From positions 1-64,000 of the forward strand of contig NZ_AFRW01000136.1 of the NCBI RefSeq assembly GCF_000220985.1: a DNA stretch of 64,000 nucleotides. The letters run 5' to 3'. This stretch comes from Nesterenkonia sp. F (GTDB lineage Bacteria; Actinomycetota; Actinomycetes; Actinomycetales; Micrococcaceae). Of the stretch, positions 34,458 through 54,441 are shown in pieces (the first letter of the stretch is position 1; each line of letters opens with the position of its first letter). The translations under genes were made by a program, and so were the position numbers. The notes below the pieces were generated by a model. It searched no databases and was not told the origin of the DNA. It worked only from the letters and a program-made list of their open reading frames with translations.

Positions 34458-34526
34458 TGTGCTTGACCTCACACTGTGGCCCGGCTTACCGTCGAGGCAG
34501 TGACGGCTGGAAAGCGATTGCCAGCC
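34458..34526 (+). promoter_or_regulatory. Promoter of the sugar ABC permease operon with GlxR-like and LacI-like sites
   Basis: TTGACC (34463-34468) and TACCGT (34487-34492) form a promoter with an 18-bp spacer. TGTGCTTGACCTCACA (34458-34473) overlaps the -35 and fits the CRP/GlxR pattern TGTG-N8-CACA. GGCTGGAAAGCGATTGCCAGCC, split as GGCTGG (34505-34510), AAAGCGATTG and CCAGCC (34521-34526), is a LacI-type palindrome just past the expected start site. The same layout recurs at 51736-51787 on the minus strand and partly at 61488-61552. Activator/repressor roles are inferred. Confidence 0.65.
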
Positions 34527-34562
34527 GCGGGAATACCACCGGAGACCACGGAGGAGGGGGCC

Positions 34563-34628
34563 ATGCTGTCCCACCAGGACCGCTCGCAGGCGCCTCGGCG
34601 CGTCGGAGCCGGGGAGGTGGCGCCATGA
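34563..34628 (+). CDS. 21-aa leader ORF coupled to the permease gene
   Basis: An ATG at 34563 with a strong ribosome site (GGAGGAGG, about 6 nt upstream) opens a 21-codon frame: MLSHQDRSQAPRRVGAGEVA plus Pro. It stops at TGA 34626-34628, overlapping the ATG of the first permease gene (ATGA). The frame differs from that of the permease. Its ribosome site is stronger than that of the permease itself (GGGGAGG within the leader), so it probably sets translation of the permease by coupling or acts as a regulatory leader peptide. Short length limits certainty. Confidence 0.55.
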   Translation: MLSHQDRSQAPRRVGAGEVAP

Positions 34629-38253: not shown

Positions 38254-39147
38254 TTGGCTGAACGCATCATCATCACCGGAGGCTCCGGACGACTGGGACG
38301 CAGCGTCGTCGCCGGCTTCGCCGCCACGGAGCACGAGATCATCAGCATCGACCGCGACCTGCCCGAGCAGCCGGTCGACGGCGTCGACCACCGGGCCGTC
38401 GACCTGCTCGACGCCGAGGCGACCGCCGAGCTCTTCGCCGAGGTCTCCCCGACGGCGGTGATCTCGCTGGCGGCCATCGCCGTGCCGTTCGTCGCGCCGG
38501 AGGACGTGATCCTGAAGACCAATGCGGGGATCGCGCAGAACGTCACCGCCGCGGCGGTCGGCTCCGGGGCGAAGACCGTGATCATCGCCTCGAGCCCGTC
38601 GATCATGGGCTACGGCTCGCCGGTCGGCTGGGTCCCGCCGCGGCTGCCGCTGGACGAGGACGTGCCTCCGCAGCCGTGGCACGCCTACGGGCTGAGCAAG
38701 CACGTCGCCGAGCAGGTCGCGGCGATGTTCGCCCAGCAGACCGACGCGGTGAAGTTCATGAGCTTCCGGCCCTGCTACGTGATCGCGCCCGAGGAGTGGG
38801 AGGGCGCCCCCACGCAGCAGGGCCACACCGTCCGCGAGCGGCTGGACGACCCGGCGCTCTCCGCGGTGGCGCTGTTCAACTACGTCGACGCCCGCGACGT
38901 CACCGACTTCCTGCTCGCCGCCCTGGAGCGCAGCGACGCCGTGGAGAACGGCTCGGTGTTCTTCGTGGGGGCGGCCGATGCGCTGGCGCGCCGACCGCTG
39001 GCCGAGCTGGTCCCGGAGCACTTCCCGGACCTGGCGCATCTGGCCGGAGGTCTCTCCGGAGACGCGACGGCGTTCTCCATCGAGAAGGCCCGCCGCGTGC
39101 TCGGCTGGGAGCCCAAGCGCTCCTGGCGCACCGAGCTCGCGCACTGA
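38254..39147 (+). CDS. NAD-dependent epimerase/dehydratase family protein
   Basis: A 297-residue extended SDR. The Rossmann motif is IIITGGSGRLGRSVVAGF, with DRDLPEQ carrying the acidic NAD-binding residue at the end of strand 2. The catalytic Tyr-Lys is in WHAYGLSKHVAEQ, and the Ser region is VIIASSPSIMGYG. It starts with TTG at 38254, supported by AGGAGG 7 nt upstream. It is probably co-transcribed with the Gfo/Idh gene 77 bp upstream and acts on the same sugar. Family B palindrome copy 1 lies 47 bp after the stop. Confidence 0.85.
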   Translation: MAERIIITGGSGRLGRSVVAGFAATEHEIISIDRDLPEQPVDGVDHRAVDLLDAEATAELFAEVSPTAVISLAAIAVPFVAPEDVILKTNAGIAQNVTAAAVGSGAKTVIIASSPSIMGYGSPVGWVPPRLPLDEDVPPQPWHAYGLSKHVAEQVAAMFAQQTDAVKFMSFRPCYVIAPEEWEGAPTQQGHTVRERLDDPALSAVALFNYVDARDVTDFLLAALERSDAVENGSVFFVGAADALARRPLAELVPEHFPDLAHLAGGLSGDATAFSIEKARRVLGWEPKRSWRTELAH

Positions 39148-39293: not shown

Positions 39294-39338
39294 TTGATCG
39301 TTACATGTGATTCACCTTACGTTCTCCATGGGTCGTCG
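39294..39338 (+). promoter_or_regulatory. Duplicated promoter block 1 (acetylesterase)
   Basis: A 45-bp block, 44/45 identical to 41820-41864 upstream of the lyase gene. It contains TTGATC (39294-39299), an 18-bp spacer and TACGTT (39318-39323). GTGATTCAC (39307-39315) lies inside the spacer, where a bound regulator would block RNA polymerase. Confidence 0.7.
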
Positions 39339-39387
39339 TTCGGCGACCCGTCCATCGATGATCACGACATCAGGAGGGGAACGTTCG

Positions 39388-41688
39388 ATGGTGGATCGTT
39401 TCAGATCATCCGTGATCGCCGGGGCCTCGACGCTCGCGGCGGCCGGCCTCGTGCTGGGCTCCGCCGGGGGAGCAGCGACCGGCACGACGAGCTCAGGCGG
39501 GGCCGCCACGGCCTCGGAGGCCGCATCCCAGTCGACGGGCGCGCTCGCCGCTCCGGAGTCGGTGCGCGTCGCCCACGCCGAGCCCGGGCGCCTGGACATC
39601 CGCTGGGACGAGGTCTCCGGTGCGCAGGGCTACGTGCTGCTGCGGGCCGACAGCGCCGACGGCGACTACGTCGAGGTCGCGCGCACCGGAGCCCGCGAGG
39701 TCTTCGCGACCGACGACGACGTCGACACCACGGCGGTGCACTACTACCGGGCGCGCGCCGTCGGCGCCGAGGGGCTCTCGGGACCCTCGGCGGCCGCCGT
39801 CGGGCGGCTCGCCGGCGACTCGGTGCCGGAGCCGACGTTCCCGGAGGACGGCAGCCTGACCCTGGACCTCGGACCCGGCCGCGGCGCCGAGGGTGCAGTC
39901 GCCCTGCGCCCCGGGGCGCCCTACACCGCACAGCACCGCGTCGGCTTCGTCGACCTCGAGGAGGTGACGCCCGTCCATCGCGGCCAGGACCCGCTGCACG
40001 GAGATCTGATCACCGTCGGCGACACCGAGCTGGTCGCCGACATCCCCGCCGGCGACTACACCGTCACAGTCGCCGCCGGCGATCCGGAGGCGCCCACGGA
40101 TCTGGCGGTCACCGCCGAGCAGATGCAGAAGGTCGAGCCGGCCCGGCTCGCCGCCGGCGAGACGCGGGAGCTCTCCTTCGACGTCGCGCTCGTCGACGGC
40201 CAGCTGAACCTGGAGTTCTCCGGCGAGGCGGCGACGATCTCGGCCGTGACGATCACCGCCCACCACGAGCGCGAGGCCGCGGAGACGCCGACGGCCTACA
40301 TCACCGGCGACTCCACCGTGCAGACCTATGCCGACGCGTATGCGCCCCAGGCCGGCTGGGGACAGATGCTCGGCCGGTTCCTCGACGACGGCGTCGTCGT
40401 CGACAACCACGCCATCGGCGGGCGCTCGTCGAAGAACTTCATCAGCCAGGGGCGGCTGGACGCCGTGCTGCGCCAGATCCGGCCCGGTGACACGCTCTAC
40501 GTGCAGTTCGGCCATAACGACAACACCTACGGCGTCGACGATCGGTACGCCGCCCCGGCCGACTACCGCAACTATCTGCGCACCTATGTGGAGGGCGCTC
40601 GGCAGCGCGGGGCCACGCCGATCCTGGTCACTCCCGTCTCGCGGCGGGACTTCGATCCCGCCACCGGCGCGTTCAACGTCTCCTTCCCCGAGTACGTCGA
40701 GCAGGCGACGGCGCTGGCCGAGGAGACCGGCACGCCGCTGGTGGACCTCGCGGCCTCCAGCCGCGCGTACCTGGACGAGATCGGCCCTGAGGAGGCGAAG
40801 TCCGTCTTCCTCTGGGTGCCGGCCGGGATCTATCCGAACCGTCCCGACGGCACGCAGGACGACACCCACTTCCAGGAGTACGGTGCGATCCGGATGGCAC
40901 GGCTGGTCGCCGAGGACACCGCGGCGCTGGACGTCCCGCTGGCCGAGCACGTCGTCGACGTCGAGCCGCCGGCCGAGGTGCCCGCGGCGCCGAGCGACCT
41001 GCGGGCCGAGGGCGTCTCGGCCTCCGGGCTGACGCTGCACTGGGCCTCCGGCGACGACGCCGACACCCATCGGGTGCAGATGAAACGCTCCTCTGCCGGC
41101 GAGGACGCCTGGTCGCTGGCCACCACTTCCACCGAGCAGCGCGCGGAGGTCTCCGGGCTGGAGCAGGACGCCTCCTACGACCTGCGCGTGGTCGCTGTGA
41201 ACGCCCGCGACGCCTCGGAGGCCTCGGAGGTGCTGACCGTCGCCACGCGGGCGCCGCTGCACTCCTTCGATCTCCAGCTCTCCGGCGGGCCGACGATGGA
41301 CGGCTTCACGCCGGTGGAGGGGACCACGGCGTACACCGCCGAGCGCGGCCACGGCTTCCTCGCCGGCGAGCCCGACGGCCGGGACCGCGGCGCGGACTTC
41401 GACCCGGCGCCGTCGGATCTGGCGCGGGACTTCCTGCTGCCGAGTGTGGAGACGCCCTTCGCCGTCGATGTCCCCGACGGGACCTACGCCGTGCGGGTGA
41501 TCTGGGGTGACATGATCGGCACCGCCCGGCTCGACGTCGCCGTGGAGGGCGAGGACTTCGGTGCGGCGAACGCCGGCCGCGGCTCCACGAGCAGCCGCGT
41601 GCTGCAGCCGGTGGAGGTCCAGGACGGTCAGCTGACGGTCGAGGCCGACGGCTGGCTCAACGGGGTGGAGATCACCCGGCTGGACTGA
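39388..41688 (+). CDS. Secreted rhamnogalacturonan acetylesterase-like SGNH hydrolase (CE12 type)
   Basis: A 766-residue exported enzyme. A basic-hydrophobic signal peptide (MVDRFRSSVIAGASTLAAAG) is followed by a fibronectin-III domain (about 55-140) and a first jelly-roll-like domain. The SGNH/GDSL esterase core (about 300-530) has block I ITGDSTVQ (Ser309), IGGRSSKNF, QFGHNDN and DDTHFQ (catalytic Asp491/His494). A second Fn3 and a C-terminal domain related to the first accessory domain follow. This matches RhgT/YesT-type CE12 esterases that remove acetyl groups from rhamnogalacturonan. ATG 39388 has AGGAGGGG; a 27-residue in-frame extension is rejected. Confidence 0.85.
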   Translation: MVDRFRSSVIAGASTLAAAGLVLGSAGGAATGTTSSGGAATASEAASQSTGALAAPESVRVAHAEPGRLDIRWDEVSGAQGYVLLRADSADGDYVEVARTGAREVFATDDDVDTTAVHYYRARAVGAEGLSGPSAAAVGRLAGDSVPEPTFPEDGSLTLDLGPGRGAEGAVALRPGAPYTAQHRVGFVDLEEVTPVHRGQDPLHGDLITVGDTELVADIPAGDYTVTVAAGDPEAPTDLAVTAEQMQKVEPARLAAGETRELSFDVALVDGQLNLEFSGEAATISAVTITAHHEREAAETPTAYITGDSTVQTYADAYAPQAGWGQMLGRFLDDGVVVDNHAIGGRSSKNFISQGRLDAVLRQIRPGDTLYVQFGHNDNTYGVDDRYAAPADYRNYLRTYVEGARQRGATPILVTPVSRRDFDPATGAFNVSFPEYVEQATALAEETGTPLVDLAASSRAYLDEIGPEEAKSVFLWVPAGIYPNRPDGTQDDTHFQEYGAIRMARLVAEDTAALDVPLAEHVVDVEPPAEVPAAPSDLRAEGVSASGLTLHWASGDDADTHRVQMKRSSAGEDAWSLATTSTEQRAEVSGLEQDASYDLRVVAVNARDASEASEVLTVATRAPLHSFDLQLSGGPTMDGFTPVEGTTAYTAERGHGFLAGEPDGRDRGADFDPAPSDLARDFLLPSVETPFAVDVPDGTYAVRVIWGDMIGTARLDVAVEGEDFGAANAGRGSTSSRVLQPVEVQDGQLTVEADGWLNGVEITRLD

Positions 41689-41819: not shown

Positions 41820-41864
41820 TTGATCGTTACATGTGATTCAGCTTACGTTCTCCATGGGTCGTCG
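41820..41864 (+). promoter_or_regulatory. Duplicated promoter block 2 (lyase)
   Basis: 44/45 identical to the block at 39294. TTGATC (41820-41825), an 18-bp spacer and TACGTT (41844-41849). GTGATTCAG replaces the GTGATTCAC palindrome of block 1. About 50 bp downstream GTGAATCGTTTCAG (41917-41930) overlaps the start of the gene and resembles a LacI operator, but it is also coding. Confidence 0.7.
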
Positions 41865-41913
41865 AGCGGCGGCTCACTCGTATCTGTTCTCGATATTCGG
41901 AGAGGAACGATCA

Positions 41914-44202
41914 ATGGTGAATCGTTTCAGTTCACCGCTGAAGGCCGGAGTCTCGGCCGTGGCGGCCGGCAGTCTGCTCCTCGGCGCCGCCGGGGGAGCG
42001 GCTGCCGCCCCGGAGGGTTCCGGCGATGCCGGCGGGGCGTCGTCGGAGGCCTCCGGTCTCGCCCGTCAGGCCGAGCGGATCGACCGGGCACCGGTCGCCG
42101 CGACCTCCGGCGACGGCGTGCACGTCGGCTGGCGGCTGCTCGGCGACGACCCGCAGGACCTGGCCTTCCATGTCTACCGCGACGGCGAGCGGGTCACCGA
42201 GGAGCCGCTCGACGGGACGACCAGCCTGCAGGACCCCGACGGCTCCGCCGGGGCGACCTATCGGGTGAGCACCGTCGTCGACGGCGTCGAGCGCTGGGCC
42301 ACCGAGGGGTTCGACGCCTGGGACGGCCAGACGCAGGACATTCCGCTGCAGAAGCCCCAGGGCGGCACCACGCCGGACGGCGTGGACTACAGCTACACCG
42401 CCAACGACACCTCCGTCGGCGACGTCGATGGTGATGGCGAGTATGAGTACATCGTCAAGTGGTACCCGACCAACGCCAAGGACAACGCGCACAGCGGCCA
42501 CACCGGCAGCGTCATGCTCGACGCCTACGAGCAGGACGGCACGCAGCTCTGGCGCATCGACCTGGGGAAGAACATCCGCGCCGGCGCGCACTACACGCAG
42601 TTCCAGGTCTTCGACTATGACGGCGACGGCCGCTCCGAGGTCATGACCAAGACCGCCGACGGGACCGTCGACGGCGCCGGCGAGGTGATCGGCGACCCGG
42701 AGGCCGACCATCGCAACTCCGAGGGCCGCATCTTGGAGGGGCCCGAGTACCTGACGGTCTTCGACGGCGAGACCGGTGCGGCCGTCGACACGGTCGACTA
42801 CGTCCCGCCGCGCGGGGACCTGGCGAACTGGGGCGACACCTACGGCAACCGCGTCGACCGCTTCCTGGCCGGCACCGCGTATCTGGACGGGCAGTCGCCG
42901 AGCGCGGTCTTCGCCCGCGGCTACTACACCCGCGCCGTGGTCTGGGCGGTGGACTTCGACGGCGAGGAGCTGAGTTCGCGCTGGGTCTTCGACAGCGACG
43001 AGGCCGGCGACGAGTATGAAGGCCAGGGCAACCACAGCCTCTCGGTCAACGACGTCGACGGCGACGGCAGGGACGAGATCGTCTACGGCTCGATGACCCT
43101 CGACGACGACGGCACGCCGCTGTACAACACCGGCCTCGGTCACGGCGACGCCCAGCATGTCTCCGACTTCGACCCCTCGCGACCGGGCCAGGAGGTCTTC
43201 TCCGCCCACGAGGACATCGGCGCCTCCGGAGGACGCGGCGCGACGCTGCGCGACGCCGCCACCGGTGAGATCCTCTGGGACATCCCGGCCGAGGTCGACA
43301 CCGGTCGGGCGGCCATGGGCGACATCGACCCGCGCCACCCCGGCGCCGAGGGCTGGGCCGTCGGCGGCGACGCCTCCTGGGACTCGCGCACCGGGCAGCT
43401 GATGTCCGCCTCCGGCGAGCTGATCTCCGAGACCATCCCCGCGGCGAACTTCCTCACCTGGTGGGACGGTGATCTGCTGCGCGAGATCACCGACCACGAC
43501 TACGACGCCGAGTCCGGCACGGGCGTGCCGACCATCTCGACGTGGAACTACGAGGAGGAGGCCGAGGAGGAGCTCTATCGGGCCGAGGGGACGCTGAGCA
43601 ACAACGGCACCAAGGGCAACGTCGCGGTGCAGGCCGACCTGTTGGGCGACTGGCGCGAGGAGATCGTCACCCGCACCGAGGACTCGACGGCGCTGCGCAT
43701 CGCCACCACGGTGATCCCCACCGAGCATCGACTGCGCACGCCGATGTCCGACTCGCAGTACCGGCTGTCGGTCGCCTGGCAGAACACCGCCTACAACCAG
43801 CCGCCGCACACCTCCTACTTCCTCGGCGAGGGCATGGAGCAGCCTGAGGCTCCCGCCCTGGACTACACCGCCGAGGCTCCGGAGTTCGAGGAGGTCCCCG
43901 GCACCGGCGAGCCCGCACCGGGCCCGGTCGCGATCGACGTCGAGGATGCCGAGGTCGGCAAGCTGCGGGTGGAGGCGACCATCGCCGAGGGCGAGGTCAA
44001 CGGCACCCGGTTCGCACTCGTCGTCGACGGCGAGCAGCGGGCGACGGCGCAGGTCGAGGACCGCACGCCGAAGGACCAGGACGTGAAGCTCCAGGCCGGC
44101 GACGTCGGCCCCGGCGAGCACGCGGTCCAGGTGGTGGCGAGCAACGACGCCGGCGAGACGGCCTCCGAGACGGTCGCCGTGACAGTGCCCGTCGACGACT
44201 GA
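41914..44202 (+). CDS. Secreted rhamnogalacturonan lyase-like protein (PL11 type)
   Basis: A 762-residue exported enzyme. The signal peptide starts MVNRFSSPLKAGVSAVAAGS. The large beta-propeller lyase domain shows calcium-binding Asp-rich repeats such as DVDGDGEYEYIVKWYPTN, FDYDGDGRSEVMTKTADGT and NDVDGDGRDEIVYGSM, plus GLGHGDAQHVSDFDPSRPG. These match PL11 YesW/YesX lyases that cleave the rhamnogalacturonan-I backbone by beta-elimination. A C-terminal beta-sandwich (about 675-760) probably binds carbohydrate. ATG 41914 has GAGAGG; the first residues resemble the acetylesterase start (MVxRF), so the two leaders share ancestry. Palindrome B3 follows. Confidence 0.9.
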   Translation: MVNRFSSPLKAGVSAVAAGSLLLGAAGGAAAAPEGSGDAGGASSEASGLARQAERIDRAPVAATSGDGVHVGWRLLGDDPQDLAFHVYRDGERVTEEPLDGTTSLQDPDGSAGATYRVSTVVDGVERWATEGFDAWDGQTQDIPLQKPQGGTTPDGVDYSYTANDTSVGDVDGDGEYEYIVKWYPTNAKDNAHSGHTGSVMLDAYEQDGTQLWRIDLGKNIRAGAHYTQFQVFDYDGDGRSEVMTKTADGTVDGAGEVIGDPEADHRNSEGRILEGPEYLTVFDGETGAAVDTVDYVPPRGDLANWGDTYGNRVDRFLAGTAYLDGQSPSAVFARGYYTRAVVWAVDFDGEELSSRWVFDSDEAGDEYEGQGNHSLSVNDVDGDGRDEIVYGSMTLDDDGTPLYNTGLGHGDAQHVSDFDPSRPGQEVFSAHEDIGASGGRGATLRDAATGEILWDIPAEVDTGRAAMGDIDPRHPGAEGWAVGGDASWDSRTGQLMSASGELISETIPAANFLTWWDGDLLREITDHDYDAESGTGVPTISTWNYEEEAEEELYRAEGTLSNNGTKGNVAVQADLLGDWREEIVTRTEDSTALRIATTVIPTEHRLRTPMSDSQYRLSVAWQNTAYNQPPHTSYFLGEGMEQPEAPALDYTAEAPEFEEVPGTGEPAPGPVAIDVEDAEVGKLRVEATIAEGEVNGTRFALVVDGEQRATAQVEDRTPKDQDVKLQAGDVGPGEHAVQVVASNDAGETASETVAVTVPVDD

Positions 44203-44842: not shown

Positions 44843-45976
44843 TCAGCGCCGCAGCGTCGCCGGCCGGTCGCGTCCGGCGACCTCGATGCTCGGCCAGCGC
44901 GGGTCGAGGCTGAGGACCTCGACGTCTCCATCCTGACGCATCAGCACTGTGTCCTCGACCTTCGCGCCGAGAACCCGCCGCGCGTCGAAGCCGGTCGGGT
45001 TGAAGGCGAAGGCCTGGTCGGGGTGCAGCACGTCCGGCACTCCGGGCGCGACGCGCGGGTCGCGGCCCTGGTAGCCGGCGGCTCCGCCCTGGTGGTGCTG
45101 GGTCCACTCCTCGGGGTCGAAGCCGCGAGCGGGATAGGCCCGGCGGATCGTCTCCAGCACGTCGACCAGCGCGACGCCGGGGCGCAGCGCGGCGAAGATG
45201 TCGGCCTCGACGTCGAGGATCGCGGCATCCAGCGCGTCCTCGCCCTCGACCGGGTCGCCGAAGCCCACCCACCGGGTGACGTCGGCGATCAGCCCGCCGC
45301 GCCGGGCGCAGACCACAGCCATGGCCCGGCGACCCAGTGGGCCCGACGTCGGCAGCGGATGCCGGTGCACGGCCCGGTCGGCGCCCTGGGCCAGCAGCAC
45401 CACCGGCTCGGCGCCGCGGGCGGTCAGCCGACCGCCCAGCTCGGCGGCGAGTTCGAACTCGGAGGTCTGCGGCGTCGCCGTCGACAGCACGTCGGTGAGC
45501 ACCTCGGCGGACTCGCGGCAGAGCGTCCGGTAGCGCTCGATCTCCGGGGCCAGCAGGCTCGCCCGGGCCGCGCGCAGCGGCAGGGCGGCGGAGCCCTCGT
45601 CGACCAGCGTCCAGTCCGCCGCGGCCGGGAACCAGGAGGCGACGGCGTCGACGTCGGCGTGCCAGGCGATCGGGTGCAGGGTGACGGTGCCGTCGTCCAG
45701 CGCGTCGGCCAGCGGGGCCAGCTCCTCCTCGCGGATGCGGGCGGCCTCGTTGGAGAACACTCCGATCTCCACGCCCTCGCGAGTCACCAGGGCACGCAGG
45801 ATCGGCGCGCCGGCCAGACTGATGTGCACTCGGGCGCCGACCAGCAGCCAGGAGAGCGCGCCCTCGGAGGAGAGCACCAGTCCGTCGGCGCCGATCTCGT
45901 CGAGCACGCCGGCCAGCCGGCGGTGCTTGGCGGCCAGCTCCGCGGTAGGGGACATCTGTGGGGGCTGCTGCGTCAT
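44843..45976 (-). CDS. M24-fold protein with incomplete metal site
   Basis: A 377-residue pita-bread-fold protein (creatinase N-domain then M24 domain). In true M24 metallopeptidases five ligands (Asp, Asp, His, Glu, Glu) bind two metals. Here the second Asp (LIADVTRWVGFG), a His (TQHHQGGAAGYQGRDP) and the last Glu (GAKVEDTVLM) can be placed. The first Asp is replaced by Val (MAVVCARRGG), and the penultimate Glu by Asn (AFAFNPTGFD). It may be a mononuclear or non-peptidase variant. The ATG overlaps the stop of the Gfo/Idh-PmoA gene, so it belongs to the sugar operon. Confidence 0.8.
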   Translation of the reverse strand: MTQQPPQMSPTAELAAKHRRLAGVLDEIGADGLVLSSEGALSWLLVGARVHISLAGAPILRALVTREGVEIGVFSNEAARIREEELAPLADALDDGTVTLHPIAWHADVDAVASWFPAAADWTLVDEGSAALPLRAARASLLAPEIERYRTLCRESAEVLTDVLSTATPQTSEFELAAELGGRLTARGAEPVVLLAQGADRAVHRHPLPTSGPLGRRAMAVVCARRGGLIADVTRWVGFGDPVEGEDALDAAILDVEADIFAALRPGVALVDVLETIRRAYPARGFDPEEWTQHHQGGAAGYQGRDPRVAPGVPDVLHPDQAFAFNPTGFDARRVLGAKVEDTVLMRQDGDVEVLSLDPRWPSIEVAGRDRPATLRR

Positions 45977-48117
45977 GCTCGCTCCTCCGCCGGCACGGTC
46001 GCCGGCTCGTCGATCAGCCGCTCGCCGAGGGCGGCGGCCTGGTCACGGTCCAGTCGGCCGTCGACGACGGCGACGCGCACCCGGCGTGCGACCTGCCGGC
46101 CGGGCTCGGCGGCCACCGGCGCGTCCCAGGCGAGCGACATCCCGACTCCGGGGTAGCCCGAGCAGCGCACGAACCACGGGTCGGCGTCGGTCGAGGCCAG
46201 CACGAGGGTGGCCTCGCCGCCGCCGTGCACCGAGCCGAAGCGGCCCGAGTACATCAGCCAGTCGGTGACGCTGCCGTGCACCCCCTCCTCGCCCTCGGCC
46301 TCGGCGGTGCAGATGGCGGCGTCCTCGACGGCCGGCAGCCGCCAGAAGAAGCCTCCGTAGCCGCCGCCGACGCGTCCGTTGGAGCCCGGGCTGCCCAGCA
46401 TCACCGTCCGGTCGACCGCAGGGGTCAGCGCGAAGGACACGTCCAGCGCCCAGCTGTCGGGGACGTCGGGGCCGGCGGCGCCGGCGGAGCCGAGACCGGC
46501 CGCTGTGACCGACCGCTCCTCGACCAGCAGCGCCGCGCCGCGGTCATCGATCCAGTCCAGCCGCTGGTGCAGCCGGGAGCCGCCGTCGAGCGCGGCGACG
46601 TCGTGGGTGAGCCGCTGCTCGGCGGGGCGGATCCGCCCGTGGTCCGCGCGCCAGATGTACCGGCCGGCGTCGCGGGTGTAGGTGCGTCCGCCCCAGAAGT
46701 TCGTGCCGTCGACGTCCTGCAGGGCCACGGAGACGCCCAGATGCCACGTGTGGTCCAGCGGCTGCTGGTCGGTGACGACGACGCCGCCGCGGGTGCGGAC
46801 GCGGTCGAGGAACGGCCGCGGCGAGTCGGTCGGGGAGAGATCCTCGCCGGTGCGCAGCTCGGCCACGGCCCGGCGGGCGCCGGCGTCGCGGATCGTCAGC
46901 TCGCCGTCGGTCGCCGGCGGCGCGGCCCAGGGGGCGCCCAGCGAGGAGAACGTCGACGGCGCCTTCGTCGCCCGGGCCAGGTAGTCGGCGATGTGCGGGA
47001 TGACCGGATGACGCTCCGGGCCGGAGTCGACCTGCTGAAGGTGCTCCTCGCCGATGGCCGCCGGCGCCTCCGCGGTGCGCACCGCCTCGAGGACCTGCAT
47101 GAACGCGTCGGCGTCCTCCAGCGGGGAGAGCAGCGCCCCGGCGGTCCCGTCGCGGACGTCGAGCAGGTTCTCCAGCAGGTCGGTCCGGCCATGGACGACG
47201 GTGCGCGGTTCCCCGGCGTCGTCGGCGTTCTGCGGCGCCTCGCGGTTCGGCGTGATGACCAGCTCGTCGCGGGTGTAGTAGAGCACCGCCTGCCCCTCGG
47301 TGCCGTGGACGGTCACCCAGGGGTACTGCTCCTGCTCCTCCGGCGCGCACAGCGTCAGCGCGGCGGTCACCGGAAGCCCTGCGGCAGTGCGCAGCCGCAC
47401 GATGGAGGTGTCGTCGGCCTCGATCCGGTGGGCGTGGTGCAGCTCGACGGCGACGTCGTCGACGTCGGAGGCCCGCCGCGCTCCGGCGACGTGCAGCGCG
47501 GTGCGCACGGCATGGGCCAGCGGATTGGTGACCACGCCGTCGACGACTTCGACGCCGTCGAGCACCCGTCGGCCGGCCCACGGCGCGCGGTCGTAGTAGG
47601 CCTGCCGGCGCAGCCACAGCCCGGTGGCCGAGACGGCGCGCAGCTCACCGATGCCGCCCGGGGACTCGGGCGCGGCGAGCAGCTGCTCGATCGCCTCCAG
47701 CGCGTGGGAGCCGATGGACTGGAAGCCCACCTGCACCCGGCGGCCGGCGGCCTCGGCATGGGCCAGCAGCTCGCGGTGCTGGGCGAGCGTCGCCGTCGGC
47801 GGCTTCTCCAGCAGCACGTCGGCGCCCATGTCCATCGCCTCGCGGGCGAGGTCGAAGTGCGTGTTGATCGGGGTGGAGATGATGACGACGTCGGGGCGGT
47901 GCCCGGCTTCGCGCGCCTCGGTCAGCGTGGCGTGGACGGGGATGTCCCCGCGGACCTCCGGTCCCGGGTCGGTCAGGCTGGCGCCGGCGATGAGCTCGGC
48001 GCGGCCGAGCGCGGCCAGCCGCTCGAGGTTCGCCAGGTGGCGGCGGCCGAAGCCGTCCAGTCCCACCAGCAGCACGGAGGTCGGGGTGCGGGGGTCGTCG
48101 GGGGCGTCGTCGGTCAT
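45973..48117 (-). CDS. Gfo/Idh oxidoreductase fused to a PmoA-like (DUF6807) domain
   Basis: A 714-residue fusion. The N-terminal half (about 1-390) is a Gfo/Idh oxidoreductase: VLLVGLDGFGRRHLANLERL, VIISTPINTHFDLA, and the EKP motif in DVLLEKPPTATLAQ. The C-terminal half (about 415-705) resembles the PmoA/DUF6807 family: PRPFLDRVRTRGGVVVTDQQ, then PLDHTWHLGVSVALQDVDG and TNFWGGRTY. PmoA-type domains occur beside sugar oxidoreductases in polysaccharide loci; their reaction is not settled. The fusion implies that both domains work on one substrate. Its stop overlaps the M24 start. GAGGAGAG precedes the ATG closely. Confidence 0.82.
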   Translation of the reverse strand: MTDDAPDDPRTPTSVLLVGLDGFGRRHLANLERLAALGRAELIAGASLTDPGPEVRGDIPVHATLTEAREAGHRPDVVIISTPINTHFDLAREAMDMGADVLLEKPPTATLAQHRELLAHAEAAGRRVQVGFQSIGSHALEAIEQLLAAPESPGGIGELRAVSATGLWLRRQAYYDRAPWAGRRVLDGVEVVDGVVTNPLAHAVRTALHVAGARRASDVDDVAVELHHAHRIEADDTSIVRLRTAAGLPVTAALTLCAPEEQEQYPWVTVHGTEGQAVLYYTRDELVITPNREAPQNADDAGEPRTVVHGRTDLLENLLDVRDGTAGALLSPLEDADAFMQVLEAVRTAEAPAAIGEEHLQQVDSGPERHPVIPHIADYLARATKAPSTFSSLGAPWAAPPATDGELTIRDAGARRAVAELRTGEDLSPTDSPRPFLDRVRTRGGVVVTDQQPLDHTWHLGVSVALQDVDGTNFWGGRTYTRDAGRYIWRADHGRIRPAEQRLTHDVAALDGGSRLHQRLDWIDDRGAALLVEERSVTAAGLGSAGAAGPDVPDSWALDVSFALTPAVDRTVMLGSPGSNGRVGGGYGGFFWRLPAVEDAAICTAEAEGEEGVHGSVTDWLMYSGRFGSVHGGGEATLVLASTDADPWFVRCSGYPGVGMSLAWDAPVAAEPGRQVARRVRVAVVDGRLDRDQAAALGERLIDEPATVPAEERA

Positions 48118-48159
48118 CTCTCTCCTCGGAATGCGGCTGGATCGGTCTGCGGATGGATC

Positions 48160-48235
48160 GAGTGGCCGCTCCTGACGAGATCTCCGGCCCTGCGGCGGGC
48201 GCGGGACGGAAGAATGTCGTCAGGAGCGGCCACTC
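48160..48235. repeat. 76-bp palindromic repeat, family A copy 3
   Basis: GAGTGGCCGCTCCTGACG (48160-48177) and its exact complement at 48218-48235 form a perfect 18-bp inverted repeat. Total length is 76 bp as in copies 1 and 2, but the interior differs. It lies between the TIM-barrel gene stop and the Gfo/Idh-PmoA start within one operon, so it may attenuate downstream expression. Confidence 0.88.
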
Positions 48236-48284
48236 GATGCCCGCGGGCGGGCTCTCGGCGGTCTCGCGGGCTTCGGCGGGCGGC

Positions 48285-49181
48285 TCAGGACGCCGGCGTC
48301 GGCGCCGCGGCCCGCAGCGCCGGCAGCACGAGCTCGCCGTAGCGGGCCGTCATGGTCTCCAGCGTGGCGGCCGCGTCCTGGGCGTTGATCTCCTCATTGA
48401 AGATCTCGACCTCCACCGGACCGGTGTAGCCGGCTTCGGAGACCCAGCGGCTGATCGTGGCGAAGTCGACGTGCCCGTCGCCCATCATGCCGCGGGACTT
48501 CAGCGCATCGGAGGCGATGGGCAGGTTGAAGTCGCAGACCTGGTAGCTGGCGATGCGCCCCTCGCGGCCGGCGCGGGCGATCTGCTCGCCCAGCTGCGGG
48601 TCCCACCACACGTGGAAGGTGTCGACGACGACGCCGACCGTCTCGGCCGGATGCTCGCCGGCGATGTCCAGCGCCTCGCCGAGGGTGGAGAGCACCGCGC
48701 GGTCGGCGGCGTACATCGGGTGCAGCGGTTCGAGCACCAGCCGGACTCCGTGTTCGGCGGCGTACGGGACCAGCTCGGCGATGCCCTCGGCCATCCGGGC
48801 TCTGGCGTCGACGACGGACTTGTCCGACCGGTCGCCGGAGCCGCCGAGCAGATGTGCGGCCGAGGGCAGTCCGCCGACGACCATGATCAGCTCGTTCGCG
48901 CCGATCGTCGCCGCCTCGCGGATCGCGGCACGGTTCGACTCCAGCGCCTCGGCCCGCTGGGCGGGCTCGGACGGGGTGAGGAAGCCGCCGCGGCAGAGCG
49001 TGGTCGCGCTCAGCCCGGCCTCGGCGATGATCTTCGCCGAGGCCTCGGCCCCGCCGGCGTCGGCCAGCAGGTGTCGCCACGGGCCGATGTGCTCCAGCCC
49101 GGCGGCGGCGACGGCCTCGACGGCCTCGCGCAGCGAGAGCCGCGGGGTGGTCCCGGTGTTCAGCGAGAGCTCGAAGCTCAT
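48285..49181 (-). CDS. Sugar phosphate isomerase/epimerase-like TIM-barrel protein
   Basis: A 298-residue AP-endonuclease-2/xylose-isomerase-like barrel. Metal-site residues appear in VRLVLEPLHPMYAADRAVLS (Glu), VGVVVDTFHVWWDP (Asp-His), IASYQVCDFNLP, GDGHVDF and VEVEIFNEEI (Glu). The N-terminus is LSLNTGTTPRLSLREAVEA. Its ATG overlaps the stop of the DUF993 gene. Such proteins act as isomerases, epimerases or, in 3-keto-glycoside pathways, as eliminases/hydrolases acting after a Gfo/Idh oxidation. The specific activity here is unknown. Confidence 0.87.
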   Translation of the reverse strand: MSFELSLNTGTTPRLSLREAVEAVAAAGLEHIGPWRHLLADAGGAEASAKIIAEAGLSATTLCRGGFLTPSEPAQRAEALESNRAAIREAATIGANELIMVVGGLPSAAHLLGGSGDRSDKSVVDARARMAEGIAELVPYAAEHGVRLVLEPLHPMYAADRAVLSTLGEALDIAGEHPAETVGVVVDTFHVWWDPQLGEQIARAGREGRIASYQVCDFNLPIASDALKSRGMMGDGHVDFATISRWVSEAGYTGPVEVEIFNEEINAQDAAATLETMTARYGELVLPALRAAAPTPAS

Positions 49182-50518
49182 CGGGCGCCTCCTTCCGCAC
49201 CGGTGCCGCCGGCGCTCGATCCGCCGTCGGGGTCGACGCCGCCGACGATCAGCGCGGCGCGCATGCGCTCGGCGGCCAGCTGCGGGTCGGTGAGCAGTCC
49301 GGCGGCGTCGGCGAGGACGAAGATCCGGGCCAGATGCGGCAGCGAGCGGCCGGCGTGCAGCCCGCCGACCAGCTGGAAGCCGCTCTGGTGGCCGTTGAGC
49401 CAGGACAGGAACGCCACCCCGGTCTTGTAGTAGATCGTCGGGTGGGCGAAGATGTGCCGACCCAGCTCCCGGGTGGAGTCCAGGATCGCTCGGCCGCGGG
49501 CGGCGTCGCCGGCGTCGTAGGCCTGGATCGCGGTGGAGGCCGCCGGGTAGATCGCGGCGAAGATGCCCAGCAGCGCGTCGGACTGCTGCCAGCCGTCGGC
49601 GCCCTGCTCCTCGCCGTCGATGAGCTCCGGGTAGTTGAAGTCGTCGCCGGTGTAGAGGCGCACGCCCTCCGGCAGCCGGGCGCGCAGCCGCTTCTCGTGC
49701 TCGGCGTCGAGCAGCGAGACCTTCACGCCGTCGACCTTCGCGGGGTTCGACTCGATCAGCTCGAGGAACGTCTCCGTGGCCGCGGCGACGTCGTCGGAGC
49801 CCCAGTAGCCGGCCAGCGCCGGGTCGAACATCGGGCCGAGCCAGTGCAGGATGACCGGCTGCTCGGCCTCGGCGAGCAGCTCCCCGTAGACGGCGAGGTA
49901 GTCCTGCGGGCCGGAGGCGACCTTCGCGAGGGCGCGCGAGGCCATCAGGATGGTCTTGGCCCCGGAGCCCTGGACGACCTCCAGCTGCTCGCGGTAGGCC
50001 GACCGGACGGCGTCCAGGCCGGCCGCGCCGGGCTCGACGTCGGCGGGGTCCAGCTGGTCGGTGCCGGCGCCGCAGGCGATCAGGTCGCGCACGGATCTGC
50101 CGGCGAGCGCCGGGTATGCCCCGGACTCGACGACGCGGGCGGCCTCGGCGGCCGAGCGGCGGATCAGCTCCTTCGTCGCCGCCCAGTCCAGGCCCATGCC
50201 GCGCTGGGCGGTGTCCATCGCGTCGGCGACGCCCAGGCCGTAGGACCACAGCTCGTGGCGGTAGGCCAGCGTGGCCTCCCAGTCCGGCGCCGCCGGGGCG
50301 CCCGGGACGTTCTCGGCGTCCATGCGCGGGACCACGTGGGCGGCGGCGTAGACCACCCGCGATCTCAGCGGCTCGCTCGGCCGGGTGAATGCGCCGACGC
50401 GCGGATCGGTCTGGCCGGTCATCGTGTGTTCGACCGTGCCGCCCTCGGGCGTCGGCAGGGTCAGCGTGGGCAGCCGGGTGCTGGTGGTGGTGCTGGTGTC
50501 GGTGCTCGTGGTGCTCAC
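49178..50518 (-). CDS. DUF993 / dihydrodipicolinate-synthase-like protein
   Basis: A 446-residue protein of the DUF993 group, a divergent class I aldolase-like (DapA-related) barrel. Segments seen include SRVVYAAAHVVPRMD, LWSYGLGVADAMDTAQRGMG, VILHWLGPMFDPALAGYWG, VDGVKVSLLDAEHEKRLRA (probable Schiff-base Lys in GVKVS) and LYTGDDFNYPELIDG. A Thr/Ser-rich N-terminus starts with GTG overlapping the upstream stop (GTGA). In this operon it could split a keto-aldonic acid formed by the oxidoreductases. No substrate has been assigned from the sequence. Confidence 0.8.
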   Translation of the reverse strand: MSTTSTDTSTTTSTRLPTLTLPTPEGGTVEHTMTGQTDPRVGAFTRPSEPLRSRVVYAAAHVVPRMDAENVPGAPAAPDWEATLAYRHELWSYGLGVADAMDTAQRGMGLDWAATKELIRRSAAEAARVVESGAYPALAGRSVRDLIACGAGTDQLDPADVEPGAAGLDAVRSAYREQLEVVQGSGAKTILMASRALAKVASGPQDYLAVYGELLAEAEQPVILHWLGPMFDPALAGYWGSDDVAAATETFLELIESNPAKVDGVKVSLLDAEHEKRLRARLPEGVRLYTGDDFNYPELIDGEEQGADGWQQSDALLGIFAAIYPAASTAIQAYDAGDAARGRAILDSTRELGRHIFAHPTIYYKTGVAFLSWLNGHQSGFQLVGGLHAGRSLPHLARIFVLADAAGLLTDPQLAAERMRAALIVGGVDPDGGSSAGGTGAEGGAR

Positions 50519-51681
50519 AGGGTGATCTCCGGGATGTCGACGGTGCGGCGTTCGGCGGCGGACTGCAGGCCCAGCTCGGCCAGCTGCACGCCGCGGGCGG
50601 CGGAGAGCAGGCCGAAGCGGTGCTCGCGGCCGGCGACGACGTCGGCCAGGAACTCCTCCCACTGGGCCTTGAAGCCGTTGTCGAAGGTGGCGTTGTCCGG
50701 GACCTCCATCCACTGGTCGCGGAAGGACTCGGTCACCGGCAGGTCGGGGTTCCACACCGGCTTGGGAGTGTGGGCGCGCTGCTGGGCGACGCACTTCTGC
50801 AGGCCGGCGACCGCCGAGCCGTGCGTGCCGTCGATCTGGAACTCGACGAGCTCGTCGCGGTAGACGCGCACCGCCCAGGAGGAGTTGATCTGGCCGACCA
50901 CGTCGTCGCCGTCGGGGGTCTCCAGGTCGAAGATGCCGTAGGCGGCGTCGTCGGCGTCGGCGTCGTAGCGCTCGCCCTTCTCGTCCCAGCGCTGCGGGAT
51001 GTGGGTGGCGGTGCGCGAGGTGACCGACTTGACCTTCCCGACGATGCCCTCGAGCACGTAGTTCCAGTGGCAGTACATGTCGGTGGTCATCGAGCCGCCG
51101 TCGGCCAGACGGTAGTTCCACGACGGCCGCTGGGCCTCCTGGTGCTCGCCCTCGAAGACCCAGTAGCCGAACTCGCCGCGCAGCGAGAGGATCCGGCCGA
51201 AGAAGCCTTCGTCGACCAGTCGACGCAGCTTGATCAGGCCCGGCAGGTAGAGCTTGTCGTGGACGACTCCGGCGGTGACCCCGGCGGCCGAGGCCTTCTG
51301 CGCGAGGTCGACGGCGCCGTCGAGGGTCTCGGCGGTGGGCTTCTCCGTGAACAGGTGCTTGCCGGCCGCGATCGCCGCCGACAGCGTCTGGTGGCGCAGC
51401 GAGGTCATCGAGGCGTCGAAGACGATGTCCACGCTGGGGTCCCGGATGATGCCGTCGAGGTCGGTGGTGAAGTGCTCGACGTCGTGCTTCGCGGCGAGCT
51501 CGCGGATCTTGTCCTCGTTGCGGCCGACCAGGATCGGCTCGACGGTGACCTTGGAGCCGTCCGGCAGCTCGATGCCGCCCTGGTCGCGGATGGGGAGGAT
51601 CGAGCGCAGCAGGTGCTGGCGATAGCCCATCCGGCCGGTGATGCCGTTCATGGCGATGCGGAGGACGCGGGGTTCAGACAT
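50515..51681 (-). CDS. Gfo/Idh/MocA-family oxidoreductase, first gene of the minus-strand operon
   Basis: A 388-residue NAD(P)-dependent oxidoreductase. The N-terminus is RIAMNGITGRMGYRQHLLRS (Rossmann loop), EKP motif HLFTEKPTAETLDG, and the catalytic region includes GGSMTTDMYCHWNYVLEGI. It heads a unit in which gene ends overlap (GTGA, ATGA). Transcription should start at the TTGACA/TACCCT promoter with a LacI-type operator at 51736-51749. Its ATG at 51681 has AGGAGT about 11 nt upstream. The sugar substrate is unknown; context suggests a glycoside or oligosaccharide from pectin. Confidence 0.87.
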   Translation of the reverse strand: MSEPRVLRIAMNGITGRMGYRQHLLRSILPIRDQGGIELPDGSKVTVEPILVGRNEDKIRELAAKHDVEHFTTDLDGIIRDPSVDIVFDASMTSLRHQTLSAAIAAGKHLFTEKPTAETLDGAVDLAQKASAAGVTAGVVHDKLYLPGLIKLRRLVDEGFFGRILSLRGEFGYWVFEGEHQEAQRPSWNYRLADGGSMTTDMYCHWNYVLEGIVGKVKSVTSRTATHIPQRWDEKGERYDADADDAAYGIFDLETPDGDDVVGQINSSWAVRVYRDELVEFQIDGTHGSAVAGLQKCVAQQRAHTPKPVWNPDLPVTESFRDQWMEVPDNATFDNGFKAQWEEFLADVVAGREHRFGLLSAARGVQLAELGLQSAAERRTVDIPEITL

Positions 51682-51801: not shown

Positions 51802-52818
51802 ATGGCAGTCCGCCTGGCCGACGTCGCCAAGGCCGCCGGCGTCTCGCAGTCCACGGCGTCCCGTGTCCTCAACGGGTCCTCGCGCCGGCCGAATCCGGCC
51901 GTCGCGGAGCGGGTGCGCGCCGCCGCCGACGAGCTCGGCTACTTCCCGAACGCGCAGGCGCAAGCGCTTGCCCGTTCCAGCGCCGGGCTCACCGGACTGA
52001 TCGTCCACGACATCGCCGACCCGTACTTCTCCTCGATCGCCCGCGGGGCCCAGCGCGGACTGGCCGGCTCCGGGGTCCAGCTGATGCTGGCCTCCACCGA
52101 GCGCGAGGCCGAGGCCGAGGTCGAGGCGGTGCGCACCTTCATGTCCTATCGCACCGACGCGATCATGTTGGCCGGCTCCCGCGGCCTGGCCGACGACGCC
52201 GCGCTGCAGAAGGTGCTGGAGACCTACCAGGACAACGGCGGCAAAGTGGCGATGATCGGTCAGCCGCTGAGCAACGCCGGGGGCGTGCGCATCGACAACG
52301 ACGGGTCCGCGGCGGCGCTGGCCGGCGAGCTGCTCAAGCTCGGGCATCGGCGGTTCGTCGTCTTCGCCGGCGAGGAGCAGCTGACCACCGCCGCCCAGCG
52401 CACTGCGGGGTTCACCTCCAAGCTGCGTGCCGCCGGAGTGAAGCCGGAGGCGGTCCATCACGGGGCGTTCAGCCGCGACGGCGGCTACTTCCTGATGAGC
52501 GAGCTGATCCGCTCCGGAGCGGTCGGTGGGCCGGGTGCGGGGCCGCTGTGTCTGTTCTGCGTCTCCGACGTCATGGCGCTGGGCGCGCTGGCCGCTGTGC
52601 GTGAAGCGGGGTTGCGCGTGCCCGAGGACATCGCCCTGGCCGGCTTCGACGACATTCCCACGCTGGCCGACCAGAGCCCGACGATCACCACGGTGCGCCT
52701 GCCGCTGGAGGAGATCGGGCGGATGACCGCGGCGATGACGCTGCACAACGGCGACGCCGACCGCTGGACCGTCGTCGAGGGCACGCCGGTGCTGCGCGAG
52801 AGCACCCGGCGGGACTGA
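51802..52818 (+). CDS. LacI-family transcriptional regulator
   Basis: A 338-residue repressor. The LacI helix-turn-helix is VRLADVAKAAGVSQSTASRV with hinge region LNGSSRRPNPAVAERVRAA, followed by a periplasmic-binding-protein-like effector domain (about 60-335), for instance GLIVHDIADPYFSSIARG and CVSDVMALGALAAVREAG. AGGAG lies 7 nt before the ATG. It is divergent from the Gfo/Idh operon with an operator between them, so it is probably the local regulator of the catabolic region, with operator-like sites also at 34505 and 61521. The inducer is unknown. Confidence 0.92.
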   Translation: MAVRLADVAKAAGVSQSTASRVLNGSSRRPNPAVAERVRAAADELGYFPNAQAQALARSSAGLTGLIVHDIADPYFSSIARGAQRGLAGSGVQLMLASTEREAEAEVEAVRTFMSYRTDAIMLAGSRGLADDAALQKVLETYQDNGGKVAMIGQPLSNAGGVRIDNDGSAAALAGELLKLGHRRFVVFAGEEQLTTAAQRTAGFTSKLRAAGVKPEAVHHGAFSRDGGYFLMSELIRSGAVGGPGAGPLCLFCVSDVMALGALAAVREAGLRVPEDIALAGFDDIPTLADQSPTITTVRLPLEEIGRMTAAMTLHNGDADRWTVVEGTPVLRESTRRD

Positions 52819-53111
52819 GGCTGTCGGCGGGACTGGGCGCCGTCATTCCCCGTCCAGTCGGGCTGGGCGGCTGACACTCCATGGGGAGAACTGGGCCGAG
52901 CGCCGGGGAGTGCCTTCGCCCGTGCAGGGCGGGGCATCGGCGGCATCGGCGGCATCGGCAGCGTCGACGGGCGCCTCGTCCGGTTCGAATCGGGCATGAG
53001 CCCTGACTCGCAGAGAGCAGAGAGCGGTTTCCATCGGGCTTCTCGATTCCATTGACGTGTGATACGAATCACATCATGATGAGAGCACGCATCACGACGA
53101 GGGGAGCTCTC
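52819..53111. promoter_or_regulatory. Promoter region of the first solute-binding protein gene
   Basis: TTGACG (53052-53057) is followed after 17 bp by CATGAT (53075-53080). The spacer is filled by TGTGATACGAATCACA (53058-53073), a perfect TGTGA-N6-TCACA CRP/GlxR-type palindrome, a position expected to repress. GAGAGCGGTTTCCA (53020-53033) is a partial LacI-type site on the minus strand. A GGCATC triplet repeat occurs near 52933. No gene is seen here. Confidence 0.65.
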
Positions 53112-54410
53112 ATGGAATCCGCCCGCACGGTCCGCCGCGGCCGCATCAGGATCCTCACCGCCTCCGGATTGGCGACGGCGCTGCTGCTCACCGCCTGCGG
53201 TGGCGACGACGGCGGCGGGGGCGACGGCGAGGGCGTCACCCTGGAGTTCGGCTGGTGGGGCTCCGACACCCGCCACCAGAACACCGAGGACATCATCGAA
53301 GCCTTCGAGGAGGAGCACCCGGACATCACGATCGAGGGTCGCTATGGACCCTGGGACGGCTACTGGGACCAGCTCGCCACGCAGACCGCCGGAGGTGACG
53401 CTCCGGACATCATGCAGATGGACGAGCTGTACCTGCGTGAATACGCCGACCGCGGCGCGCTGCTGGATCTGGCCGACGTCGACGTCTCGCAGATGGACGA
53501 GTCGGTGGTGCAGAACGGGCAGTCCGACGGCGCCCAGTACGGCATCACCATCGGCATCAACGCCTTCGTGATGCTGGCGAATCCGGATCACTTCACCGAG
53601 GCCGGCGTCGAGATGCCCGATGACACCAGCTGGACCTGGCAGGACTACCAGGACGTCGCCGTCGAGCTCTCGGAGAATCTCGACAGCTCCTGGGGCGCGG
53701 GCGGCTTCGACGAGACCGGCGGGTTCCAGACCTGGCTGCGCCAGCACGGCAAGCATCTGAGCACCGAGGACGGCGAGCTCGGGTACGAGCCCGCCGACGC
53801 CGAGGAATATTTCGCCTATATCCAGGAGATGCTGGACGCCGGGGCGACCCCGCCGGCCTCGGCGCTGGCCGAGGATCACGGCGTCGGGCCGGACGACTCG
53901 CTGACCACCAGCGGCGACGTCGCCATGCGCGCCTGGTGGTCCAACCAGACCGTGGCGCTGAGCGAAGCGGTCGGCACCGAGCTGCGGCTGCTGCGCTTCC
54001 CGAGCCCGGAGGATGGTGAGGACGGGGCCGCACCCTGGTACAAGTCCTCGATGTTCCTCTCGGCCAGTGCGGACACCGAGCATCCCGAGGAGGCGCAGGA
54101 GTTCATCGACTTCTTCGTGAACTCGCAGGAGGCCGCGGAGATCGAGATGACCGAGCGGGGCATCCCGCCGAACACCGAGATCCGGGAGCAGATCACCGAG
54201 CAGCTCGAGGGGCCGCAGCAGGCCGTGGCGGAGTACATCGCCGACATCGAGGACGAGCTCGGCCCGCCCGAGCCGGTGCCGGCGATGGGCGGCTCGACCT
54301 TCCAGGAGATCCTCTACCGCTACCAGGACGAGGTGCTCTTCGGGCGCCAGGCGCCGGCCGAGGCGGCCGAGGCGATGCACGCCGAGATGGAGGGCGAGCT
54401 GCAGGGGTGA
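53112..54410 (+). CDS. Sugar ABC transporter solute-binding lipoprotein 1
   Basis: A 432-residue CUT1 solute-binding protein anchored outside the membrane. The lipobox is ALLLTACGG (Cys29). Conserved blocks shared with the other three paralogues in the window are LEFGWWGSDTRHQN, EEHPDITIEGRYG, GYWDQLATQTAGGDAPDIMQ and YLREYADRGALLDL. The start is ATG 53112 with GAGGGGAG; the frame extends upstream without a ribosome site. It has no adjacent permease; the pair at 34625-36518 is the likely partner. The next gene, on the opposite strand, is RpiB-like. Confidence 0.93.
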   Translation: MESARTVRRGRIRILTASGLATALLLTACGGDDGGGGDGEGVTLEFGWWGSDTRHQNTEDIIEAFEEEHPDITIEGRYGPWDGYWDQLATQTAGGDAPDIMQMDELYLREYADRGALLDLADVDVSQMDESVVQNGQSDGAQYGITIGINAFVMLANPDHFTEAGVEMPDDTSWTWQDYQDVAVELSENLDSSWGAGGFDETGGFQTWLRQHGKHLSTEDGELGYEPADAEEYFAYIQEMLDAGATPPASALAEDHGVGPDDSLTTSGDVAMRAWWSNQTVALSEAVGTELRLLRFPSPEDGEDGAAPWYKSSMFLSASADTEHPEEAQEFIDFFVNSQEAAEIEMTERGIPPNTEIREQITEQLEGPQQAVAEYIADIEDELGPPEPVPAMGGSTFQEILYRYQDEVLFGRQAPAEAAEAMHAEMEGELQG

Positions 54411-54441
54411 GCGCGGGCCGGACGGCCGTACCCGCCGGGAC

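Follow-up and report, generated by a model that had tools for sequence, protein, structure and literature searches.

What chemistry is carried out by five adjoining genes for dehydrogenase-, aldolase- and isomerase-like proteins that stand beside genes for secreted rhamnogalacturonan enzymes? The question is raised by a stretch of 64,000 nucleotides from Nesterenkonia sp. F (contig NZ_AFRW01000136.1, positions 1 to 64,000; referred to here as the window), which belongs to contig C3 of a draft genome (2.8 Mb, 93% complete). The genes form an operon on the minus strand, at 44843-51681, in the order GfoA, DUF993, TIM, GfoP and M24 (Table 1). An original prediction, made from the sequence alone, had described the products as a Gfo/Idh oxidoreductase, a DUF993 protein, a TIM barrel, a Gfo/Idh fusion and an M24-fold protein, and Pfam agrees with all five assignments. 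The prediction placed the system at 45973-51681, which covers four of the genes and leaves the M24 gene almost wholly outside. We propose, with a probability of roughly 0.45, that the operon serves the breakdown of sugars or sugar acids, obtained here from rhamnogalacturonan I, by an oxidative and non-phosphorylating route of oxidation, isomerisation or elimination, and retro-aldol cleavage.

A five-gene operon and its conserved core

Neighbouring genes overlap by 4 bases at three of the four junctions (GfoA/DUF993, DUF993/TIM and GfoP/M24), the first overlap being that of the GfoA stop with the most likely DUF993 start, a GTG at 50518. A gap of 167 bases separates TIM from GfoP, and all five genes have a third-position GC content of 0.93-0.97. 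The identical gene order is found in other genera (L003, L004, L006, L171 and L176), and since it recurs there at protein identities of 47-88% it is more than chance. The arrangement is a real operon and a conserved set.

Among 396 genomes sampled in the phylum, 29 were positive for DUF993. GfoA adjoins DUF993 in 28 of these, and both GfoA and TIM lie near it in 27; the exceptions are G227, in which the contig ends and no TIM was seen, and G294, in which a weak DUF993 match is accompanied by neither gene. In G008, a relative, the DUF993 match (C1:379764-380957) is split in three, so this copy may be frameshifted or broken. Eighty further loci, the best-matching ones and mostly from Streptomyces and Arthrobacter relatives, were examined by clustering. 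DUF993 was found in 80, GfoA in 79, TIM in 77 and a LacI-like gene in 69, counts that derive from a simple gene caller by which some genes were lost (GfoP and M24 in L006) and others fused. As determined by tblastn, GfoP lies within 10 kb of this trio in only 7 and M24 in only 4 of the 80 loci. GfoP and M24 also occur with no trio at hand, in L152, L155 and L156, which are only 3.8 kb long, and in L158, L159 and L162, which extend over 19.5 kb; in G470 and G656, GfoP is separated from DUF993 by about 0.4 Mb and 2.4 Mb, respectively. The single five-gene pathway originally envisaged was therefore rejected: the trio and GfoP/M24 occur apart, and the operon thus joins a conserved core to a separate second module. 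The core block is GfoA-DUF993-TIM beside LacI, and the second module is the Gfo-DUF6807 fusion with M24.

All 14 genomes chosen for a DUF6807 match carry DUF993, versus the 29 of 396 in the phylum; the 14 are a biased sample, picked from PF14100-positive genomes of six genera, and the trio was already known in G552, G646 and G625. The last two, from another genus of the same family, contain the trio, GfoP, M24, RGL11, GDSL, Epim, GfoC, permeases, MR/MLE and glycerate kinase (names as in Table 1). In G552, from another family (L170), the trio lies at most 20 kb from permeases, GfoP, GfoC, Epim and relatives of KdgD-type and MR/MLE proteins. The trio is found in Actinomycetota, Thermosporothrix and Proteobacteria.

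Predicted functions of the operon proteins

The folds of the proteins, their conserved candidate catalytic residues and the linkage of their genes were established by computation. DUF993 matches PF06187 with 566.7 bits (cut-off 24), and the closest named match among those listed is from Nesterenkonia halophila, with 95% identity. Its model (mean predicted local distance difference test score, pLDDT, 89.9) shares the barrel fold of the dihydrodipicolinate synthase (DHDPS)/N-acetylneuraminate lyase (NAL) aldolase superfamily. VIA-align gave a Z score of 54.6 with 4dnh, which is SMc04132, and of 28-29 with DHDPS chains, at best 2.4 Å over 285 residues. K266 is invariant in all 37 rows of the alignment and lies on predicted strand 262-268, which is strand 6; strand 222-227 carries H225-W226, and strand 287-290 precedes G291-D292-D293. 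By strand order, the lysine on strand 6 would correspond to that of the superfamily, which also has a GDD on strand 7. By contrast, the GTTGE and YNxP motifs, which serve pyruvate binding in the pyruvate-dependent aldolases of this superfamily, are absent from the DUF993 consensus of 37 rows, which instead has invariant MDTAQRxM and HWLG motifs and a longer chain. A regular expression for GTTGE and YNxP matched both in 4 of 12 DHDPS-family loci, and the other eight did not fit. The fold and the strand-6 lysine without the pyruvate-binding motifs lead to the prediction of a Schiff-base aldolase for another keto-sugar; we read the protein as a Schiff-base enzyme whose carbonyl substrate is not pyruvate. 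In a Nocardiopsis, two further genes follow the trio. One encodes a KdgD-type protein, which scores 399.6 bits with the subfamily model (cut-off 278) and 295 bits with the KdgD equivalog (cut-off 374); the other encodes an enolase-superfamily member whose nearest model is that of talarate/galactarate dehydratase, matched below its cut-off. Such neighbours point to sugar-acid metabolism.

The structures nearest to TIM are two entries of SMc04130 (3ju2 and 3qc0) and 7vpf, named 'xylose isomerase', followed by IolI. The probable metal ligands E151, D187, Q214 and E259 align with the residues that bind the metal in IolI; at the position of Q214, SMc04130 and 7vpf have His.

In inositol dehydrogenases, catalysis depends on the lysine of an EKP motif and on a D-x3-H pair. 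GfoA has this set: K114 (the EKP lysine), D201 and H205 are invariant in all 19 rows of an alignment with a mean column identity of 71%. In GfoP, Asn replaces the Asp of the pair (N-x3-H; the alignment was read without the L003 row), and GfoC has EKP and lacks the D/H pair. GfoA matches PDB 3oqb with 445 bits, and its profile matches 6a3f, which we take to be the levoglucosan dehydrogenase entry, with 73 bits. For that enzyme, PMC10066097 gives 6A3I. Against the NCBIfam model of levoglucosan dehydrogenase (NF052479, cut-off 650), GfoA scores 72.0, GfoC 56.5 and GfoP 23.5 bits, and none of the five operon proteins reaches the cut-off of any NCBIfam model.

The domain fused to GfoP, originally called PmoA-like, is Pfam DUF6807: only PF14100 and two Gfo/Idh families match the protein, and no methane-monooxygenase Pfam family does so at E <=0.001, a negative from sequence profiles, since no structure of PmoA was compared. 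The model of the domain, built from 8 sequences, has a pLDDT of 78.8. Among the best 50 rows it matches supersandwich domains with Z scores of 13.5-16.2 over 192-243 residues, including GalM proteins and sandwich domains of glycosidases; the Foldseek TM-scores are at most 0.45, with the periplasmic domain of YidC in the first row. Judged from the model, the domain looks like a galactose-mutarotase-like supersandwich, which gives no evidence of PmoA.

Metallo-dependent M24 peptidases use five metal ligands: D, D, H, E and E. Alignments of the M24 protein with 5cdl and L125 show V or R at the first D, G at the H and N at the first E, and only the last E is retained throughout; the second D is retained in the window protein and is N in nine of nine aligned close relatives. 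The broken metal site claimed earlier is thus supported by the alignments, and the protein probably lacks the ligand set of a metallo-dependent peptidase.

A possible oxidative route from rhamnogalacturonan I

In the route that we favour, the RGL11 lyase and the GDSL esterase would act outside the cell, and the ATP-binding cassette (ABC) permeases and the binding proteins would import the pieces. In the cytoplasm, GfoA would oxidise a hydroxyl group to a ketone with NAD(P), with GfoP and GfoC serving other positions or substrates, and the metal-dependent TIM protein may isomerise, epimerise or eliminate on the keto-sugar. K266 of DUF993 would form a Schiff base with the resulting ketone, after which retro-aldol cleavage would follow. 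The three-carbon fragment would leave through glycerate and glycerate kinase, and the enolase-superfamily dehydratase would serve a sugar-acid branch. The order of these steps, the substrates and the aldol cleavage itself are what we infer. The route is favoured by the linkage of GfoA and TIM to DUF993, by the S. meliloti locus described below, by the fold and invariant K266 of DUF993, by the invariant residues of GfoA and the IolI-like ligands of TIM, by the glycerate kinase and sugar-acid genes found nearby in several loci, and by the proximity of RGL11.

Secreted rhamnogalacturonan enzymes and binding proteins do adjoin the operon, as was originally noted, and the link recurs in a second genus and a second family. 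RGL11 lies at most 17 kb from DUF993 in five of five genomes of two families (G000, the window genome, G646, G625, G401 and G571), all chosen because an RGL11-like sequence had already been seen there, and BLAST places it close to DUF993 also in G418 and G433. The window genome contains a second RGL11 gene, matched in two pieces (C74:889-2769). RhaA was not found in the window genome. PF04962 (KduI), sought as a marker of the uronate branch, gave five hits of five, but the family also covers IolB.

PF07470, the Pfam family of GH88/GH105, has no match in G000, G646 or G625. All 11 genomes searched in the family lack it, so that its absence does not mark this locus in particular. G401, G571 and G433 have a match of 50-56 bits (three of eight over the cut-off), and we rejected the proposition that genomes with both DUF993 and RGL11 always lack GH88/GH105, since G401 and G571 have all three. 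The cluster contains a DUF2264 protein, a family that we take to be GH154. If that is correct, the missing GH88 becomes even more puzzling: PMC12269599 reports two GH154 members to be dehydratases, which generate unsaturated ends that serve GH88, and found no hydrolase activity.

In the window genome, at 93% completeness, the enzyme that usually acts on the lyase product was not found. This leaves room for a possible oxidative cleavage of the glycosidic bond, as in the original prediction. A Gfo/Idh protein would convert imported unsaturated galacturonyl-rhamnose to its 3-keto-glycoside, TIM would beta-eliminate the aglycone and the other proteins would process the halves. PMC10066097 and PMC10628242 describe such chemistry by Gfo/Idh proteins and TIM-barrel eliminases in the levoglucosan and O-/C-glycoside pathways, and among the scanned cluster proteins there is no Pfam glycoside-hydrolase family; G000, G646 and G625, moreover, lack the GH88/GH105 match though RGL11 and the trio are present. 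The levoglucosan pathway (LgdA/LgdB1/LgdC) resembles our system in its Gfo/Idh dehydrogenase, PF01261 TIM barrel and ABC import, and the O-/C-glycoside pathways (AtOGE, PuCGE) in oxidation followed by a metal-dependent TIM barrel, the C-glycoside eliminases having Glu at the first ligand position, as in TIM (PMC10628242). The likeness holds at the superfamily level only. GfoA falls far below the levoglucosan dehydrogenase cut-off, the term 'aldolase' is absent from PMC10066097, and against the models of the glycoside 3-dehydrogenases BT_2158 and BT_2159, with cut-offs of 750 and 650, GfoA scores 24-27 bits (26.6 versus 650 for BT_2159). The metal ligands of AtOGE are His132/Asp163/His189/Glu233, whereas the TIM family is nearest to structures for which no substrate is given, a placement made without a direct eliminase sequence comparison. 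Neither GfoA nor TIM is close to any characterised 3-dehydrogenase or eliminase. In addition, the absence of PF07470 may simply characterise the family, independently of the locus, G401 and G571 combine DUF993, RGL11 and a GH88-family gene, and the window genome is 93% complete. Cleavage of the bond by the operon is a minority hypothesis, which we consider unlikely.

The oligosaccharide might instead be cut by a hydrolase or lyase encoded outside the operon, possibly the DUF2264 protein in the cytoplasm, so that the operon would degrade free monosaccharides only. The DUF2264 protein has no evident signal peptide and is encoded in the window cluster, in L171 (G646) and, more distantly, in L203 (G625), but the two GH154 dehydratases argue against a hydrolase to the extent that DUF2264 is GH154, and we give this explanation a low probability. 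It is likewise improbable, in our estimate, that DUF993 is a Schiff-base enzyme other than an aldolase, namely a dehydratase, decarboxylase or deaminase like KdgD and HypD of the same fold. HypD structures are among its fold matches, a KdgD-type protein is encoded two genes away in L059, and the pyruvate-binding motifs are absent; against this, glycerate kinase recurs as a partner, which suits cleavage to a C3 product. More doubtful than any of these is the combined proposal that, in rhamnogalacturonan I degraders without GH88/GH105, oxidation and elimination by GfoA, TIM and the Gfo/Idh-mutarotase-like fusion break the bond of unsaturated galacturonyl-rhamnose, and that the keto-sugar so formed is split by DUF993, a new class I aldolase, with carbon entering at glycerate.

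Several findings weigh against the oxidative route with retro-aldol cleavage that we prefer. Most of the 80 loci have the trio and LacI alone; MR/MLE was clustered in only 6 and glycerate kinase in only 4, and RGL11 was found by tblastn in 1, so that the substrate of the trio may in general be unrelated to pectin. The hhalign profile alignment of DUF993 with DHDPS is gapped at the lysine strand, and the equivalence of K266 with the DHDPS lysine consequently rests on strand order rather than residue-level superposition. Among 11 annotated alphaproteobacterial plasmid regions, DUF993 occurs with a CoA-transferase or acyl-CoA dehydrogenase gene in 8 and with a close GfoA in 1. These contexts suggest other DUF993 partners and perhaps another chemistry.

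DUF993 matches were found in 147 plasmid records, 88 of them from Sinorhizobium or Rhizobium, and 16 plasmid regions, 15 of them annotated, were studied together with a second S. meliloti region (L179). Of the 16, 11 have a recognisable TIM and 4 a close GfoA; the 15 annotated regions include glycerate kinase in 7 and a CoA-transferase gene in 9. In the proteobacterial loci L112, L113, L117, L118, L121, L122 and L123, DUF993 and TIM stand beside varying sets of CoA-transferase, acyl-CoA dehydrogenase, 3-ketoacyl reductase, electron-transfer flavoprotein, GMC and Dabb genes. The proteobacterial CoA-transferase/acyl-CoA dehydrogenase setting is a second context of DUF993. On plasmid pAO1 of Paenarthrobacter nicotinovorans (L115, 6820-10364), GfoA (80%), DUF993 (68%) and glycerate kinase lie behind ABC, GMC and aldehyde dehydrogenase genes, and no TIM was found in 17 kb; none of the papers listed for pAO1 concerned this GfoA-DUF993 cluster.

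L179 comprises ABC genes, two Gfo/Idh genes, TetR, GfoA (58% identity), DUF993 (51%), an MR/MLE-like gene barely over the cut-off (30 bits), TIM (45%) and, downstream of TIM by BLASTP, a GfoC relative (37% over 440 residues). Its TIM differs from SMc04130 in one residue, which identifies L179 as the SMc04130 region; the DUF993 and GfoA genes there are SMc04132 and SMc04133. SMc04130-SMc04139 thus shares GfoA, DUF993, TIM, the GfoC relative and ABC genes with the window, and structures 4dnh, 3ju2 and 3qc0 belong to it. It differs in having TetR where the window has LacI, and no rhamnogalacturonan lyase, DUF6807 or peptidase is annotated in its 22 kb. In the accessible parts of the literature on these genes, an AniA/PhaR target table and a regulatory-network paper, no substrate is named.

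Neighbouring features and significance

The features of the cluster are collected in Table 1. The binding proteins and the DUF2264 protein are encoded on the LacI side of the operon. We looked for a LacI operator common to the trio and RGL11 promoters and found four CG-centred palindromes between the genes; two of these are perfect, but their sequences differ. A small gene 64 bases below M24 (44350-44778, minus strand) resembles a universal stress protein by eye and has relatives in L002 (99%) and L157 (56%). The 512-residue frame at 54407-55945 (plus strand), for which Pfam gives no match, is probably spurious and overlaps frames on the opposite strand, among them that of a HAAS-domain protein at 54965-55906.

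Table 1. Coordinates of the operon and its neighbours in the window
Feature	Coordinates	Strand	Evidence
Glycerate kinase, start uncertain	31803..33155	-	Pfam; TIGR00045 353.7 bits (cut-off 168)
MR/MLE, enolase-superfamily sugar-acid dehydratase-like protein	33076..34227	-	Pfam; best NCBIfam talarate/galactarate dehydratase, 131.6 bits, below cut-off 500
ABC permease 1	34280..35554	+	Pfam
ABC permease 2	35547..36518	+	Pfam
GfoC, third Gfo/Idh protein	36818..38176	+	Pfam, BLASTP
Epim, NAD-dependent epimerase/dehydratase-family protein	38254..39147	+	Pfam
GDSL esterase, inferred rhamnogalacturonan acetylesterase type, secreted	39307..41688	+	Pfam, signal-like N-terminus
RGL11 rhamnogalacturonan lyase, secreted	41833..44202	+	Pfam 1.1e-236, signal-like N-terminus
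M24-fold protein, 377 amino acids, most metal ligands lost	44843..45976	-	Pfam Peptidase_M24 6.6e-12, alignments
GfoP, Gfo/Idh fused to DUF6807 (PF14100), 714 amino acids	45973..48117	-	Pfam 3.3e-57, DUF6807 model
TIM, AP_endonuc_2 sugar isomerase/epimerase-like barrel	48285..49181	-	Pfam 3.7e-36, alignments to IolI and SMc04130
DUF993 (PF06187), 446 amino acids, predicted DHDPS/NAL-fold class I aldolase	49178..50518	-	Pfam 3e-170, 37-row alignment, model
GfoA, Gfo/Idh/MocA dehydrogenase, 388 amino acids	50515..51681	-	Pfam, 19-row alignment, PDB 3oqb, aligned to 6a3f
LacI-family regulator, divergent from GfoA	51802..52818	+	Pfam
SBP1, ABC transporter sugar-binding lipoprotein	53052..54410	+	Pfam, lipoprotein-like N-terminus
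DUF2264 protein, no evident signal peptide	57908..59827	+	Pfam, N-terminus

In a literature search that left most subscription journals outside its scope, no paper naming DUF993 was found, DUF6807 was mentioned once, merely as a number, and among the matches listed for 3-keto and rhamnogalacturonan together no title described such a route. Structures of close homologues (3oqb, 4dnh and 3ju2) have been deposited with no function in their names. Organisms that have RGL11 and no GH88/GH105 match raise the question of which enzyme cuts the lyase product, and the assignment of DUF993 would give meaning to many proteins, at least 590 relatives, that are now called 'dihydrodipicolinate synthase family'.

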